Positions 3,101 to 36,035 of a stretch of 64,000 nucleotides of DNA are shown in pieces. The stretch's first letter is position 1, and each line of letters begins with the position of its first letter. Source of the stretch: Sphaerolaimus hirsutus (Eukaryota; Nematoda; Chromadorea; Monhysterida; Sphaerolaimidae); contig OZ038460.1 in the NCBI GenBank assembly GCA_964036195.1, positions 8,249,504 through 8,313,503 on the forward strand, written 5' to 3'. Both the position numbers and the translations under genes were made by a program. Under the pieces are notes generated by a model, which saw only the letters and a program-made list of their open reading frames with translations, was not told where the DNA came from and made no database searches.

Positions 3101-3789
3101 TCAGCCTGAAAACATTTAGTTTATATTAGAAGTGGTTTTCGAGGTACCATGCCTGAATCGACGGTTTCTACGCGCTGATTTTTATTTCAATTGAATATGT
3201 TTTGGTGAATCAAAGTGCGTACTATTCACTTGTGACTATTCATATATTTATGTATCATTTACACAGGTAACAGGTGCATTCAGCAACCAATTCAATACAC
3301 AACACAAACAGGAAACCATGGCTCATTTGAATGGGCTGTTTGGTATCAAATTGACTGCAAGGTCAAGCAAAGATAGGATCTCATGCATTGATCTTGCTCA
3401 GTGGAAACGAGTGTTTCCTTTGCACAGTCACGCTGGCTGTCATTGTCATGGAATAATTCCGATCGGAATGGCTACTATTTCTTCTTGGAATGACCCGCGC
3501 GCGCTGCCCGCGCCCATAAACGTTTCCTCGTTTCGATTGCGATTGCTTGGGCTGGAATTGAAATAAATTGTCCCATGGGCGCATTTTCTAACGTCGAACC
3601 AATTTTAGTTAATGAGATTGGCCGCTTACCGTTTCTTGGCGGCTTTTGTTTCTGTTTTGGGCGGAGTTTACCCGTTTTTAGTCCCCCTTGCGTAATTTTT
3701 TTCATTGAGCGCCGGCCCAAACCCGGATGCATCTCATCTCTGCACAATCTGCAGCCAAGGTTCAAGATCTAGTCGGCTAACAGAAGGCC

Positions 3790-4475: not shown

Positions 4476-7225
4476 TTTCCGTCCCCTGAGCACCGGGTCT
4501 ACACGTGCACCGGGTTTACATGCGCAGCGGGTTCTGGCCGTGTTCGTGAACGCGCCGTCCGCCGCCCGCCGCCGTTGTATCAGACGGTGAAACTGCAACA
4601 TTCCGGTACGGTTGAATCGCATCCCGTTGCGAACGAAGGTATTCGACGCATGATAAAATGGCTTTGTGTATAAGCAAGAACGTCGGCTGATTTGATTTTA
4701 TTGGCTCAGCTGCAATTCAAGGCAGCGCCGCGTGCAGTCGCTGCAGTGCAATGTATGGTTCAGTGCTTATGGTGTGACTGTGCTGACTTGGCGGCTGAAA
4801 CTGAATACCTCATTTTTACCGTTTTTTTATTTGGACTTCTCACTCATTTCTCTCAAGGATTTGGTTGCAATGTATTTATAATGTTGTTTTATATGTATCT
4901 ACTTGTGGTATAAATTGTGTTATTTCTGCCGTATCCATTTTTATATAATATAGACGGCAACTTCAGTTTTTTTTCATTGAGCACCATTCGCATGACATGC
5001 ATTCTATTTTGCCACTGAACGTTCTGTTGGCGGTAGTTTGAAAGCATCCATTAAATTTAACATGCATGCACATTTTGGTCCCCTCTGTGTCAGCTTGTTT
5101 CAGGCACTGGCACAGTGAAGTTGCTTTGAGTAATGTGTTGCAAGTGGACACTTTTTGTGTTGTTTTGAGTAATTTTGCCTCGTGTTTGGGTCCGTTTGTG
5201 TCCCGTGTCGCGTTATTAACGTGTGTCTTTTGTCAATTTTGTCAGGTTTTGTGTGACTGATGGGTTTTTGTCTGTTTCGGTGTCCTACTTTCTGAATGGA
5301 ATGCGTTAGAAATAGTACATATCTGGGATTGCCTTAGTTTTTCACCTGGTCGGTTTTATTCCATGTATTGCAAAATAGGAAATGTATTTATCCTTTTTTA
5401 TAAATCCCGCTGTATTGAAAAATAAAATATGTATTTATAATATTTCGCTGAGTACGGATCGGTGTTACAAACTCATGCGATAATTTGGATACGTTTTACT
5501 CCATTGTTGTATCAGTTTTTACAACAGTTTCGCTTTCAACGTCAATGATTTATCACCTTGAAACTCAAAACTTTTATTGCCCTGCCCTGTTTGACGTAAT
5601 GCAATGCCGCTCCGCAGCGGCAATTTTATGTTCCAACAAACGCAGTAGTGATAGTACAAAAATTTTCGTTTGCAAACACGAATTATCACACATAACAACA
5701 ACTGTTAACTTTTGCAGATTACCCAAACAATGGAAGCGGACTATTTCAAAATCAAAACTATTTTTGTCAGTGGACTAATATTTGTCTCTGCGAGACCAAT
5801 TTCTCCCAATTCAATTTCTAACCATTTCTAATCGCATTTACATAAAACATTTGATTTCCAACAATGAAGGCATTTTTCACAGCTTTAGCATGGTGTTTGG
5901 CTCAGTGTCATCAAATAGTCAGCCTACCCACAGATTCAGGTATTTTAGGTTGACAAGGTTTTTGTTTTTCCACATCAAAGTGAAATATTTATGTACAAAC
6001 TGCCCCTCAGCATCAGGCTGTAGCACTTCACACATTAGCAATTTATCGGATAAAATGCGAAACAAATGGCACGCTATTTCACGTGAGAAATTTCTCTTTA
6101 GACAATTAATTCACGCTGAAAATTAGCAGCCTGTGAGGAAAATTCCAAATGTGTCATATGCCCGGTGCTAATTGGTTTGACCCGGGTTAAGTGCCATTTT
6201 CGTCCGCTAGCATGTTTTGTGGCTCAGATTTGGGATATGCTCGCTGATTTGAACATGATAACAAGCAACATACATACATGTGTAAATTGTAATTAGCGTG
6301 GATTAAGCCTGTGTTTGAATTCGGCTTGGCTTGACTGGGGTCGTTCATTAGAAAGTCCAAGTGGGATCATTTGTGTTGTGGGGCGTTCGCTTGAGAAAAT
6401 TATTTATGTAAATTGAGTACGGCTACGTTCAGAGTTAACTGCAGAAAATTAATTTTCGTGTGTATCAGCATTTGCGATCTATTTTCATTAGCATATTTCT
6501 TGTGTCAACATTCTCGTCTATGCAGAATTCATGTGCATACATTATTGTCAATTCTTGACATGACATCTCCTAGCCGATCACATAAATTATATTTTGTTTT
6601 GTGGTGGGTTGAAGCCGCAGTCTGCACATGAATATATATTTTCTGGAGTCTGGGTAGCTTTCACTTGATAGCGATGCTCTACACAAATAAATGGACCTGA
6701 AATATGCTACATGACCATTTACCATCCATGCTTTAGGCGTGTTTTGAAAATAACATCATTCAGAGGGCTGCAAGAAGCAAGCATGGATATATTTCGTGAG
6801 CACTCAAGCGTGTTTTTGCGATATAAACCATGCATGTGATTACACGGTTTTATATTTTAGCTAGGCCTCAAATTACAAGCCTTTTGATGCGGCATCTCTT
6901 TGATATATACAGCTCTGGGTTTGATTGTCACATTCAAGACACGCGTGTTTTTGTCAGCGAGCATGTCAATGTAGATCTTACTGCGCCGCGGCACTGGCAG
7001 AATGTTGACGCAACGTATTTTGACGGGAATGGTCATCCTCAAGAAAGTGTGGCTAGTGAAAAAATGCACACTGTGTGGCAATATTGTGTGTCAAATGCTA
7101 CATGTGTGAAGAGTTCAATTCAAATACAATAATTCACAGAAGTTGAATTCACATGCGCATCTTTGACATTTGACATAAAAACACACCACGTTTCAACATT
7201 CCAAAGCCAAACCTCACACCCCCAG

Positions 7226-30280: not shown

Positions 30281-30567
30281 CTGGTGTTTGGGGGTCTGCT
30301 GGGAGGGGGGTTGATTGATTGAGGCGTTCACTTTTTATGTTGATAACTCGAAATTTGAGTGAAGCTAGGAAACGGCATCTATTTAGAATTGGTGCCGCAT
30401 ATTGTTAACTATTTTTCACTTACCTTGTTCACTGTTTGTCACTGGCCCTTTTTAAACTATCACATGACACCTTTGGAACAAATTACGGACAATTTTCAAA
30501 AAATCTACAGCTAGAAGTAGGGTTCAAACGGGATTGACTTTTCGGGATCAGGATTGACTTTTCGGGA

Positions 30568-30866
30568 TCAATTGCAGTGGGTAAGCCGCCTTTCCGTGGA
30601 CGCGGGGGTGGTCAACACAACGCACAGCCGAATTTCAAGCGCGCAAGGATGGCTTCCGCGAATAGCAGTCCAGTAGGGCACGGACAGCAAAAAGTTGGTG
30701 TTTTCATTTTTTGTGGTTTATGGAGGTTTTCGCTGCACTCGTGCTTGTTTAGGTATGTATTTTAAGTACCCATTTGTGTTCATGCTGATGAGTCCCGCAC
30801 AAAAGTGGGGGCAGGTCCATGAGTGGGGACGAAACCTGCAAAACTTTTCATATAGTGTATAAAATT
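30568..30866 (+). repeat. Left pseudo-LTR of the Penelope-like element
   Basis: The repeat runs from TCAATTGCAGTGGGTAAGCC to TATAAAATT. It contains the probable ORF1 start (ATG 30649), a candidate donor (GTTGGT at 30694) and the hammerhead-like motif. Relative to the right copy it lacks one G near 30606 and has C for T near 30771. Confidence 0.85.
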
Positions 30867-32056
30867 TGATTTTTCGGCTTTCTAGTGTGATACTGTGGGT
30901 GTCCCGTTCACACTAGCTTTCCTGATCGGTAAAATGTCAATTTTTGTCGTTTTTCTCGTTTTGCGACCGTCAGAAAGCACGCTGATGCGTCATCTGAGGT
31001 TCGCTGGGTCATAGAAGCACTGAATAAGTCACTATGTACCCACCACATGCACTCTCAAGGAGTCTGTGGATTTATTTATCTTTTTTCACGTTTGTTTAAC
31101 GTTTACTCTTATCGTAGGGTCAGAAGAAAGGGGGTGGTGATATTGTGCGCCGGCGCGATTTTGAGCAGGCGATACAAGGGATTAGGACAAATAGGAGGCT
31201 GATAGATAGGGTGGAAGATTTTGCGTGTGATTTTTGGCTAATTGTTAAGGGTATTCCGACAACGGAAAAGACACTGAAAGATGTTTTACGCGACATTTTT
31301 GTGAACGGTTTGGAACTAAGCGAGGATCAGTGGAAAACGATTTATAAATTTAGGCGCCTGCCTAGTCAGGACGTTAAAGTGTCAGTCAAAGATCCCGTCT
31401 TGGTTAATGAAATTGTCCAGTTTAGGCGCCAGAAAATGGCGGAAAAGGGCTATTTTCTGGAGCTCACCGATGAAACAGGGGATATTAAGCATTATGACAT
31501 AAAAATTTTTAAGGAGCGCACCGAAAAAGAGCGCGGTGACGCGCGCTCGGTGGCAAATGTCATGAAAGCGATTAAGAGCACTGGTTTGGAGTGTTTCCAA
31601 TACGATGGCACCCGTATTGGAGTGAAAAAGCCCGGTACTGGCGAAGTTGATAGGCAACCGTGGTGGAAATGGGTGAAAATCCTGAAATTGGATCTAAATG
31701 CACCGCACGATCCAAATTCGCTGGTAGCGAAAGTGGCGCGCGCCACGATTTCTGAGGCTGGGGGCGATAATGTCGCCTCCAGCAGTAATTCTAATGCTTC
31801 GGGCAAACCCACGCAGTTGCCGGTGGTGAATTTGGCGCGCATGCTGAACACCTCGGCCGACACGTCGGGCGTGCACTCGCGCAGCGAGACGCCGGGCACC
31901 GGTCAAAGCACTAGCACTTTTAAGTTGCCAGATGCACCCAAAAATGTGCGTGGCAGGAATCCAAGTAATATTGTGGATGTGGCCGTAGTTCAGAAAATGC
32001 GCGAGGATTATCAGCGCAAGTTGGAGGGCTTGCAAAATATGCAAGTCGGAAATTAA
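30649..32056 (+). CDS. ORF1 of the Penelope-like element, resembling L1-type ORF1 proteins
   Basis: Predicted exons are 30649-30693 (inside the pseudo-LTR) and 31118-32056, joined in phase 0 (GTTGGT donor, ATCGTAG acceptor), giving about 327 residues. The second exon opens GQKKGGGDIVRRRDFEQAI. Seen: LIVKGIPTTEKTLKDVLRDI, a basic IVQFRRQKMAEK stretch, HYDIKIFKERTEKERGD and YDGTRIGVKK, then a Ser/Asn-rich linker and a short C-terminal helix. Spacing and motif style recall the RRM plus C-terminal domain of L1-type ORF1 proteins, RNA-binding chaperones of non-LTR retrotransposons. This is an inference from pattern; no homologue was checked. The intron would contain the hammerhead-like motif. Without it, the frame is open from 31118 and has no early ATG. 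Confidence 0.6.
30779..30839 (+). ncRNA. Hammerhead-like ribozyme motif in left pseudo-LTR (non-canonical strand order)
   Basis: Seen: CTGATGA (30785-30791), GTC (30815-30817, cleavage expected after C30817) and GAAA (30831-30834), the invariant hammerhead core. Stem I pairs 30779-30784 with 30818-30823 (one G-U), stem II pairs GTCCC 30792-30796 with GGGAC 30826-30830, and stem III pairs GCAGGT 30811-30816 with ACCTGC 30834-30839. In a normal hammerhead the CTGATGA strand is followed by the GAAA strand and then the GTC strand; here GTC comes second, so the three stems would form a pseudoknot. In a two-copy transcript, the GTC strand of the second copy could complete a normal fold with the first two strands of the first copy. 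Activity is unproven. Confidence 0.5.
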
Positions 32057-32476: not shown

Positions 32477-35377
32477 GCAAAGGTAACGTGGCAGGCCTAT
32501 TTAGGTCACGCGGCCGCGATAAATCCTGGCAGCCCCAGGACAATAGGCATTCACACTCCCGGGGATAGCCATGGGTCGGGCCCCCATTGTAAATCACCTG
32601 CGACAAATTTACTAAACTTTTGTGGGTATGATAAGCCACATTTTGAATTCAATAGTAGTCATTTAAGGGGATTAAAGATTGTAAAATGTGGCCGAAAAGT
32701 ATGTGATATGTGTACACATATCAACAGAGAAGTGTGGACTGAAAGTACAGTAACGGGTAGAAAATTTTGTACATCTACAGATACCGGTGTACAGAGTTTT
32801 TCATGTGACACGAAAAACGTCGTGTATTGTATTACATGCACAAAGTGTTTGGCACAATATGTTGGTGAAACGAAGCGTAGTCTTAGGCAACGTTTAGGTG
32901 AACATTTACGCAATATACGTAATAATAAGAAGCAGTATTTATATACGCATTTTACAGGAACCTGTAACGTTGATGATCTAAAGTGCCAGATACTTTGGCA
33001 TGGTCCAGAGGATAAATTGAGGGCAGTTGAAAAGATTTACATGTTGGTGCTTAATACTGTTTATCCACTGGGTCTTAATGATAATGTTCCCGGTCTAGGT
33101 AACCTTGTACAAAAATTCCCGTCATTGCAAAGTTGTAAAGGGTGCCCATACTTTTCATTGCCAGTACCGAGAAGGGTACGGACGCATGGGACAAAGGTGG
33201 CACAGGTAAAACGTAAGGTTGTAGATGTAGTTGATAAATTACGTGAAAATGTCAATTGCACATCTTTTATTCTGTATTGTCGCTTACATATATTGTGTTC
33301 ATGTACCCGTAAAACAGTATGGAAAGCGGCGGTTAATGAGTTTGATATAGGTTCAAATAAATTAATTGAGAATTTTGTGAAAATAATTGATTTTAAGGAG
33401 AATAGTATTCAAACACCCAAAAAGAGAATAGGCTTTCGCATGGTTGTAAAATATAGAAATAAACTCTTTGATAAGGTAAACTTAAAAAGAATTTTACGTA
33501 GTGCAGAAGTTCGGCATTCTTTACCGCATACTTTGTGGGAAGAAGTAGATAGAGTCACTTTGACGTTTCGTTATGAGGACCCAATTTTCCTCAAATTTTG
33601 CAATTACACCAGTCGTTTGCGATTTTTGACGTTTACGGAATTTCGTCGGATTTTGGATGAGGAGTGTAAATGCGGTACGGAGTTTGAAAGTACTTATGTA
33701 CATGATGTTTACAAACATGTGTACACGGGTGATTCGGGGGTGGTAGGCAACGTGTGTCTACAAAATTTGCTTGATAAGGGAACTAAATTTAGAATTCCTA
33801 AAAATGATAATAAGCTAGAAATTTATTATGAATTGGTAATGGCATTAGGTACATTGGCAGCCTTTCTGGTTAAGAAACATGGAGATAGAAGTTTTGTGTG
33901 CAAATTTATTGCAAGTGCAAAAAACGCCTGTAGGAACCATGTATTTCGCCTTCCATGTAGCTTGGATAGGAATTTGTACAATTATGAGGAGTGTGAAAAA
34001 GCGATAGTGCAAATTCACAAAAAATTAATCCTTGTACCGGTGGATAAAGCTGCAGCTAATTTTGCATTTATTTGCGACCACTTGTATTTCAGTGTTTTGG
34101 GTAATGAGCTTGGCTATAATAAACGAAGTGTGAAGTTTTCTGATAGTGTTACATATAAGTATTTTGGTGAAAAATGCACACAACTCACAGATTTGCTGTG
34201 TAGACATCGGAATATGTCACTTCACTATAATTATGCAGTGGAAAGTTTCTCTGAGACATTGCCACTATTATTCTGGACAGCCAAACTGCATAAAAACCCT
34301 TATAAATTTAGGTTTGTTAGCGGTGCTAAAAAGTCCAGCACGAAGCCGCTTTGTATGTTAGCGTCTAATATTTTGCAGTCGCTGCTACGCATGCTTAGGG
34401 GTTATTGTACTGTTATTTTGGAGAGATCTGGTATTAAGCACTTCTGGATGGTAGAAAGTACCATGGAAGCACTTGATTGGCTGGAAAAATGGCGCTACAA
34501 AAAAGTAGATGTGGCTTTTACTGCAGATTTTACCACATTGTTCCCTAAATTGCCTTTTAGAGTAATGGTTGATTCACTAAAATTTGCCATTGATCTGCTG
34601 GTTAAGGGTGATATAATTAACATCTATAAAAATCATATTTCAGTTGATTATAAGCGCAAAAATAGAGCCATTACAACATTGACTAGAATGGAAATACTAG
34701 AATGTCTTGAATTAAGTATCACTGAGAATTATGTTGAATTTGCTGGGCTGATTTTTCAGCAAAAGTGTGGTATACCGGCAGGTGGAGCACATTCACCTGC
34801 ATTAGCAAATTTGACCCTGGCAATTCTAGAATATAAATATGTTCGAGAGAACATAAATGCTTCAGACATTTGTAAAGTAAACAATATTTTCCGGTATGTC
34901 GATGATTGTTTGGCAGTCAACTATCCTACATTTGTGGTAGATGCACAGTCATATATTTATCCAAACACACTACCCCTTGAAATGGCTTCGGATCCCGCTA
35001 CAGGCACTTGTCCATTTTTAGACATTGAATTAATGTTCACGCCAGACACTCTGCTTTGTAGAAATTTTGATAAGAGGAGGTTATTTACTTTTACTGTTGT
35101 AAAGTGCATACAACCGGATTCAAATGTATCCATGCAATTAAAGAAAAATACAATTTTTAGTGCACTTATTAGAATAGCTAGAACCAGTTCTACAAATTCT
35201 GAATTTTGGCCGGTACTTAGATACACGTTTCAAGAGCTGTTGACAGCTGGGTACGATTTAGGTACACTTTTGGGGGAAATGAAAAAATTCGTTGAGAAAA
35301 AATTGAGCTTGGCTAAAAAAGTAGGGGTGGGCTCACCAGGTGGGCTAGATGAGACACTTAGGAAGGTTCTCAATTGA
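32477..35377 (+). CDS. ORF2: GIY-YIG endonuclease - reverse transcriptase
   Basis: The open frame starts at 32477; the first ATG is at 32708 and gives 889 residues. The upstream part is probably coding, since CGRKVCDMCTHI spans the ATG and supplies a cysteine pair suited to the zinc-binding motif of these nucleases. Counting from the ATG: GIY-YIG domain at residues 36-100 (VVYCITC, YVGET, R60, E65); CxC linker (CSCTRK) near 196; RT motifs VPVDKAAANFAF, FWTAKLHKNPYKFRFVSG, TADFTTLF near 604, CGIPAGGAHSPALANL near 688, the catalytic FRYVDD near 728 and PFLDIEL near 768. There is no C-terminal nuclease. The product should nick target DNA and copy the element RNA by target-primed reverse transcription. 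No stop or frameshift is seen. Confidence 0.92.
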   Translation, partial: AKVTWQAYLGHAAAINPGSPRTIGIHTPGDSHGSGPHCKSPATNLLNFCGYDKPHFEFNSSHLRGLKIVKCGRKVCDMCTHINREVWTESTVTGRKFCTSTDTGVQSFSCDTKNVVYCITCTKCLAQYVGETKRSLRQRLGEHLRNIRNNKKQYLYTHFTGTCNVDDLKCQILWHGPEDKLRAVEKIYMLVLNTVYPLGLNDNVPGLGNLVQKFPSLQSCKGCPYFSLPVPRRVRTHGTKVAQVKRKVVDVVDKLRENVNCTSFILYCRLHILCSCTRKTVWKAAVNEFDIGSNKLIENFVKIIDFKENSIQTPKKRIGFRMVVKYRNKLFDKVNLKRILRSAEVRHSLPHTLWEEVDRVTLTFRYEDPIFLKFCNYTSRLRFLTFTEFRRILDEECKCGTEFESTYVHDVYKHVYTGDSGVVGNVCLQNLLDKGTKFRIPKNDNKLEIYYELVMALGTLAAFLVKKHGDRSFVCKFIASAKNACRNHVFRLPCSLDRNLYNYEECEKAIVQIHKKLILVPVDKAAANFAFICDHLYFSVLGNELGYNKRSVKFSDSVTYKYFGEKCTQLTDLLCRHRNMSLHYNYAVESFSETLPLLFWTAKLHKNPYKFRFVSGAKKSSTKPLCMLASNILQSLLRMLRGYCTVILERSGIKHFWMVESTMEALDWLEKWRYKKVDVAFTADFTTLFPKLPFRVMVDSLKFAIDLLVKGDIINIYKNHISVDYKRKNRAITTLTRMEILECLELSITENYVEFAGLIFQQKCGIPAGGAHSPALANLTLAILEYKYVRENINASDICKVNNIFRYVDDCLAVNYPTFVVDAQSYIYPNTLPLEMASDPATGTCPFLDIELMFTPDTLLCRNFDKRRLFTFTVVKCIQPDSNVSMQLKKNTIFSALIRIARTSSTNSEFWPVLRYTFQELLTAGYDLGTLLGEMKKFVEKKLSLAKKVGVGSPGGLDETLRKVLN

Positions 35378-35667: not shown

Positions 35668-35967
35668 TCAATTGCAGTGGGTAAGCCGCCTTTCCGTGGA
35701 CGCAGGGGGTGGTCAACACAACGCACAGCCGAATTTCAAGCGCGCAAGGATGGCTTCCGCGAATAGCAGTCCAGTAGGGCACGGACAGCAAAAAGTTGGT
35801 GTTTTCATTTTTTGTGGTTTATGGAGGTTTTCGCTGCACTCGTGCTTGTTTAGGTATGTATTTTAAGTACCTATTTGTGTTCATGCTGATGAGTCCCGCA
35901 CAAAAGTGGGGGCAGGTCCATGAGTGGGGACGAAACCTGCAAAACTTTTCATATAGTGTATAAAATT
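35668..35967 (+). repeat. Right pseudo-LTR of the Penelope-like element
   Basis: Direct repeat of 30568-30866, differing at about two positions. It runs straight into the host array at GGTTTTTTGAGATTGCGGGA, which matches the internal repeat of the 28230-28753 element. Confidence 0.85.
35880..35940 (+). ncRNA. Hammerhead-like ribozyme motif in right pseudo-LTR
   Basis: Identical to the motif at 30779-30839: core CTGATGA 35886-35892, GTC ending at 35918, GAAA 35932-35935, with the same three stems. The two copies carry no compensatory changes, so identity alone does not test the pairing. Confidence 0.5.
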
Positions 35968-36035
35968 GGTTTTTTGAGATTGCGGGATCGGGATCGGGAT
36001 TGGCCTTTCGGGATCGGGATCCCATTTGAACCCTA

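Follow-up and report, generated by a model that had tools for sequence, protein, structure and literature searches.

A predicted type-CSG pseudoknotted hammerhead ribozyme in the pseudo-LTRs of a Penelope-like element with an N-terminal GIY-YIG nuclease

The window, a stretch of 64,000 nucleotides from the nematode Sphaerolaimus hirsutus, contains a Penelope-like element (PLE) with a GIY-YIG nuclease in front of its reverse transcriptase, and we regard it as very likely that each pseudo-LTR of this element encodes a working pseudoknotted hammerhead ribozyme of type CSG that may process the PLE RNA. As far as sequence comparison can show it, selection maintains the fold. Self-cutting is suggested by the core letters together with two type-CSG RNAs whose cleavage has been published, and for the RNA-processing role taken by itself the chances are about even. 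Beyond the original prediction, which concerned three core segments in an unusual order, the analysis brought out a fourth helix (helix IV), conservation across families and the fact that the arrangement already has a name in the literature.

The element consists of two ORFs between two direct repeats spaced 5101 bp apart, as follows.

30604..30874, + strand: upstream pseudo-LTR (ungapped repeat core), a direct repeat 99% identical to 35705-35975
31118..32056, + strand: ORF1, 312 codons from stop to stop, no Pfam match
32477..35377, + strand: ORF2, 966 codons from stop to stop, N-terminal GIY-YIG nuclease followed by reverse transcriptase
35705..35975, + strand: downstream pseudo-LTR, a direct repeat 99% identical to 30604-30874

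By eye, the homology of the upstream repeat with the downstream one extends 5' to approximately 30568. Pfam analysis of ORF2 placed GIY-YIG at residues 114-164, above its cut-off, and RVT_1 at residues 733-813 with an E-value of 0.0015, which is below the curated cut-off of that model. Since GIY-YIG precedes the reverse transcriptase within one ORF and direct repeats are present, we assigned the element to the PLEs with the nuclease in front. Among the marks of an N-terminal-nuclease PLE, this domain order, the pseudo-LTRs and a tandem arrangement were found, the last in a pair of ORF2 copies lying 4837 bp apart with the ribozyme motif between them (L073/L074). The hammerhead thus sits in the pseudo-LTRs of such an element, as had been proposed. 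Head-to-tail PLE pairs, with ORF2 match starts approximately 4.84 kb apart and the motif in between, were seen in L073+L074 (G000 C4) and L078+L084 (G000 C738). GGGATC-like repeat units flank the element on both sides (30543-30569 and 35982-36000) and may represent its insertion target.

The original prediction had located CTGATGA, GTC and GAAA, with stems I-III, in positions 30779..30839 of the upstream pseudo-LTR, and this was confirmed base by base. The parts of the motif are listed below, with conservation counted over 67 distinct sequences.

30769..30778, + strand: helix IV, 5' strand (CCCAUUUGUG), abutting stem I, paired with 30798-30809, covarying in the family
30779..30784, + strand: stem I, 5' strand UUCAUG, paired with 30818-30823, covarying between families
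30785..30791, + strand: block C core CUGAUGA, CUGANGA being kept in 65/67
30792..30796, + strand: stem II, 5' strand GUCCC, paired with 30826-30830
30798..30809, + strand: helix IV, 3' strand (CACAAA, an AG bulge, UGGG), paired with 30769-30778
30811..30815, + strand: stem III, 3' strand GCAGG, paired with 30835-30839
30816..30817, + strand: block S, U16.1 and C17, predicted cleavage after 30817, UH in 67/67
30818..30823, + strand: stem I, 3' strand CAUGAG, paired with 30779-30784
30824-30825, + strand: linker TG between the 3' strands of stems I and II, from reading the sequence
30826..30830, + strand: stem II, 3' strand GGGAC, paired with 30792-30796
30831..30834, + strand: block G core GAAA, kept in 60/67, with AAAA in 6 and CAAA in 1
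30835..30839, + strand: stem III, 5' strand CCUGC, paired with 30811-30815
35870..35940, + strand: second type-CSG hammerhead including helix IV, motif match 35880-35923, predicted cleavage after 35918

Direct reading of the window bore out the claim of a non-canonical, pseudoknotted strand order: the blocks run C-S-G, with uninterrupted junctions in the upstream copy and exact core letters in both window copies, and all three stems formed together make a pseudoknot. Canonical hammerheads of types I-III, which are rotations of C-G-S around a nested three-way junction, are ruled out by this order. Topologically, helix IV and stem III are consecutive hairpins, and stems I and II are kissing interactions between the two loops. 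The 3' strand of helix IV starts one base past stem II, and the helix links stems I and II at their outer ends. From the end of the motif it is 35 nt to the 3' limit of repeat homology. The second copy (row L010) differs in helix IV by a single C-to-U change, which retains a G-U pair. Folding calculations gave -25.2 kcal/mol for a nested, pseudoknot-free fold of the upstream copy compared with -13.1 kcal/mol for the two hairpins alone, stems I and II being uncounted in the latter figure; because of this alternative at lower energy, a fraction of the RNA may be misfolded.

Several controls spoke against a chance match. The motif pattern matched twice in the window and never in 100 shuffles. When 30 ORF2 loci were scanned structurally for all six block orders, 25 hits were obtained and all 25 had the order CSG; no canonical-order hammerhead was detected in these loci at the threshold that yielded the CSG hits, and the same threshold left 6.7 Mb of dinucleotide-shuffled sequence (both strands counted) without a hit in any order. 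A parser tolerant of extra bases likewise had no match across 10.4 Mb of shuffled sequence, with stem III set at either 3 bp or 4 bp. It had been expected that standard models would miss a permuted form, and indeed in neither the window nor seven related loci did an Rfam hammerhead model reach its gathering score; the strongest sub-threshold match, to Hammerhead_3, scored 18.2 bits where 48.5 are required. Hammerhead_1 had 0 matches in the nematode genome itself but also 0 in each of 14 control genomes, so that its absence carries no information. Motif patterns run on viral contigs gave 0, 0 and 1 match, the single match (L109) being unrelated, and no relatives of ORF2 were found among the viral contigs. 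That match is a canonical type I (C-G-S) hammerhead at L109:12176-12227, just 5' of an ORF on a 40.7 kb viral contig with tailed-phage-like ORFs, and it also scored below the Rfam cut-off, which makes a miss by Rfam weak evidence against a canonical fold.

The same genome (348 Mb) holds dozens of copies. A DNA search with the motif region yielded 88 candidates, of which 40 were scored, and an ORF2 protein search yielded 514, of which the best 47 were scored (51 matches merged into 47 copies), so that both are lower bounds. The 47 ORF2 copies span 37-100% protein identity. Once 3' flanks had been added, 38 of the 47 carried an intact CSG hammerhead in sense orientation downstream of ORF2; two more (L054 and L094) were altered only at G12 (G to A), four (L065, L066, L079 and L087) held only a damaged motif, and in three (L056, L070 and L088) no motif was present downstream of ORF2. 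Among the 25 scan hits the motif lay mostly approximately 0.5 kb past the end of ORF2, and up to approximately 1.3 kb where the ORF2 match ended early. A second, 5' copy of the motif was present in nine of the 14 upstream windows examined and absent from the other five.

A search of other genomic copies for compensatory changes, suggested with the original prediction as a check, revealed them in all three stems and in the fourth helix as well. The window-subfamily alignment (A1) comprised 39 of 40 rows picked by DNA similarity alone, 33 of them distinct; the 5'-truncated L023 was omitted here and retained in alignments A2 and A4. In A2 one branch has five rows out of register, a fault absent from A4. 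Within this subfamily 98.5% of 889 cells paired, compared with a shuffled mean of 96.8% and with 27-51% for slid structures, and 11 cells had changed on both sides compared with 1.3 after shuffling; neither figure was reached in 500 shuffles. The set for all families joined 57 parsed sequences, for which the parser demanded that each stem have 4 or more contiguous pairs and that most core letters be present, with ten distinct damaged rows that failed the parser, in a plain MAFFT alignment; the three ORF2 copies without a recognizable motif were in no alignment. In these 67 distinct sequences 96.0% of 1537 cells paired (shuffled, 79.5%; slid, 30-45%), and 222 cells were double-changed versus 52.9 after shuffling, with none of 500 shuffles as high. 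The shuffle control ignores relatedness, so that such cell counts overstate the independent events. The 57 parsed sequences alone gave 94.3% pairing and 176 double-changed cells, and in their block alignment stem I had 59 double-changed cells, stem II had 17 and stem III had 54. Counts on a tree are safer, and the fewest changes on the ORF2 tree of 34 copies were four for the inner pairs of stem I, three for stem III and 17 for the 5' strand of helix IV. The mean duplex energy of helix IV was -12.2 kcal/mol, compared with -6.7 when strands were swapped between families and -7.1 when letters were shuffled.

All three stems vary between families. Stem I occurs as UUCAUG/CAUGAG, UUCACA/UGUGAA, UCCAAA/UUUGGG, UUGCUA/UAGCAA and UUGCUG/CAGCAA; stem II variants include GUCCC/GGGAC, GCCUU/AAGGC and GACCC/GGGUC; and stem III occurs as GCAGG/CCUGC, AACGG/CCGUU, AAUGG/CCAUU and GCUAG/CUAGC, with GCAUG/CAUGC in L017. 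Some branches have one extra nucleotide after CUGANGA or after G10.1. In L080, L085, L079, L081 and L089, as well as in the outside contig L111, CUGANGA and stem II are separated by an extra U, which in L080 and L085 has a counterpart U in front of GAAA.

The placement of stems I and II relative to each other bears on how the fold is assembled. The original prediction held that their distal ends would be joined by a few bases, and that a GUC strand of one pseudo-LTR could complete a hammerhead of normal topology with the blocks of the other copy. The first point stood, with the TG linker in the window; the 3' strands of stems I and II are 1-4 nt apart in every one of the 57 parsed sequences, and 47 of these have 2 nt there, although the parser allowed up to 16. 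Helix IV adjoins stem I and begins at most 3 nt from stem II in 56 of 57 sequences, the exception being the truncated L023. In three members of the UUGCUA branch (L081, L089 and L092) it measures only 5-6 bp and lies at most a few nucleotides from stem III, which is sterically tight. The second point fared less well. A fold requiring two copies can be drawn, as the element contains both copies, with the same stems and at a spacing of 5101 bp, and head-to-tail copies exist (L073/L074); dimeric hammerheads have also been reported for other PLEs. However, such a fold predicts no constraint on the linker or on helix IV, leaving both unexplained, and the partner within the same copy is much closer than one 5 kb off. 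We therefore consider a ribozyme that works only across two copies improbable.

We next considered, and judge about equally improbable, a conserved RNA that has the shape of a hammerhead and is no longer catalytic, binding the protein of the element or marking the start of reverse transcription. Its position would fit, the motif ending so close to the 3' end of repeat homology, and reverse transcription of one active PLE begins inside its RNA, near a pLTR-ORF junction that also holds a hammerhead (PMC11167929). Some copies have also lost core letters, G12 in seven of the 67 sequences and a G of CUGANGA in two. Nevertheless, while the stems and helix IV vary between families, the letters of the core are mostly kept, CUGANGA in 65, UH in 67 (UC 62, UA 4 and UU 1) and GAAA in 60 of 67. 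This retention is partly built into the parser, as 57 of the 67 sequences were preselected for most core letters, with UH required, but the 38 of 47 ORF2-anchored copies with intact motifs keep all of them. Furthermore, all but one of the seven G12 losses are CG-to-CA changes at the junction of stem II and GAAA (in the distinct sequences L020, L030, L033, L035, L036 and L094) and look like the decay expected of methylated CpG.

For the self-cutting type-CSG hammerhead that we favour, the kissing pairs of stems I and II would rebuild the usual hammerhead core within one RNA molecule, with self-cleavage predicted after C30817 and C35918. With less certainty, a transcript that covers both repeats, or a head-to-tail tandem, would be cut twice and release a unit-length RNA of 5101 nt; its 5'-OH and 2',3'-cyclic phosphate ends might make it a substrate for reverse transcription or circularization, and the start region of reverse transcription might lie directly 3' of the ribozyme. 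A role in transposition is not secure, because the one active PLE studied, which has a C-terminal nuclease, did not depend on ribozyme cleavage for insertion in vitro, and RNA-seq reads neither started nor ended at its hammerhead cut site (PMC11167929). Our even estimate for RNA processing has the same source, since the hammerhead of that PLE needed protein and was dispensable for insertion in vitro.

Relatives were also found outside the nematode genome. The alignment of ORF2 relatives included eight related loci on outside contigs, all from records titled as bacteria; judging from the type of element, the contigs with long PLE ORFs at least are probably misplaced eukaryotic sequence. A CSG hammerhead with helix IV was present in three of the eight (L110, L111 and L114), with stem letters unlike those of the window, linkers of 2-3 nt and ORF2 identities of 28-30% in the best segment. 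The parser tolerant of extra bases detected two of the eight at a stem III of at least 4 bp and three at a stem III of at least 3 bp. The motif lies 3' of the ORF in L110 and L111 and 5' of it in L114. L111 has stem I AUCUCA/UGAGAU, stem II GGCCU/AGGCC and a stem III of 8 bp, with its extra U following CUGAAGA, and in L114 stem III has 3 bp, a mismatch and then more pairs. Pfam placed a nuclease domain before the reverse transcriptase in L110 and L111; L114 had no Pfam match, and a GIY-YIG-like stretch was seen by eye near the N-terminus. No clear CSG motif was present in the other five contigs, and L113, L116 and L117 showed nothing. In L115, direct repeats (719-898 and 5276-5456) flank the PLE ORF and contain CUGAUGA, a 5-bp stem I and GAAA, with the partner of stem II displaced by approximately 30 nt. 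L112, a contig binned as Halanaerobiales, has a weak candidate in S-G-C order at 3342-3400, approximately 420 nt downstream of the PLE ORF match, with stems of 6, 3 and 3 bp; a score of at least 32 never arose in 4.9 Mb of shuffles (both strands counted). Although hammerhead cores are short and the parser demands paired stems, a chance match or an alignment artefact is extremely unlikely, given the empty shuffled sequence, the recurrence of the layout on contigs from other sources and the compensatory changes on plain MAFFT alignments with unparsed rows included.

Taken together, the results place type-CSG ribozymes in an element, raise them to dozens of copies and support all four helices by strong covariation. 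N-terminal-nuclease PLEs gain a predicted ribozyme that Rfam models miss, so that the role of hammerheads for PLEs becomes testable in a second lineage. The results also suggest that a natural RNA fold can keep its core despite a knotted strand order over deep divergence. To our knowledge, N-terminal-nuclease PLEs had been described as lacking canonical hammerheads. We lean slightly towards the view that the non-circularly permuted, pseudoknotted hammerhead is the standard ancestral ribozyme of these PLEs across eukaryotes, long kept, and that the two type-CSG sequences published in 2023 are pieces of such elements. On this view the C-S-G order probably had a single origin, by rearrangement in tandem or circular element RNA, where rotations (CSG and SGC) interchange.

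The closest known system is the non-circularly permuted type-CSG hammerhead described by Eckert, Friedrich, Weinberg and Weinberg in 2023 from two metagenomic sequences (PMC10085705). In vitro cleavage rates of the two RNAs are 0.004 and 0.03 per min, and their discoverers judged the type less certain because its covariation was modest (PMC10085705). Compared by layout rather than by letters, theirs and ours share the C-S-G order, three stems and a helix joining stems I and II. The sizes are similar, the published products being 48-49 nt and 29 nt with flanks, compared here, flanks excluded, with 49 nt up to the cut, counted from helix IV, and 22 nt from there to the end of stem III. In contrast with the published pair, for which the text names no element or host, the present hammerhead belongs to a defined element with dozens of copies and heavy covariation, and includes variants with extra nucleotides after CUGANGA or G10.1, unlike the published description. 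'Penelope' occurs once in that paper, in a reference title, and its main text draws no link to Penelope elements (PMC10085705). Type SGC, the HRIMA-1 motif of the same paper, is a rotation of the same non-circular order and likewise has a short linker between stems I and II and a fourth helix, but it has another block at its 5' end and was first found in metatranscriptomes near hairpin ribozymes; the branch with the short helix IV poses a steric puzzle resembling the one its authors met in some type-SGC RNAs (PMC10085705). The hammerhead of the Poseidon PLE of Anolis carolinensis also sits at a PLE pseudo-LTR, whereas it is canonical, accompanies a C-terminal nuclease and needed protein for cleavage (PMC11167929).

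Chlamys/Naiad type PLEs are the N-terminal GIY-YIG nuclease elements, and, as we know them, they share with the present element the nuclease before the reverse transcriptase, the pseudo-LTRs and the tandem copies. In the titles and opening lines of abstracts of the open-licence literature, we found neither a permuted hammerhead in these PLEs nor a link between type CSG and Penelope. PLE hammerheads and type-CSG hammerheads were each known, and, as far as the open-licence literature was searched, their combination with covariation of this strength is new.
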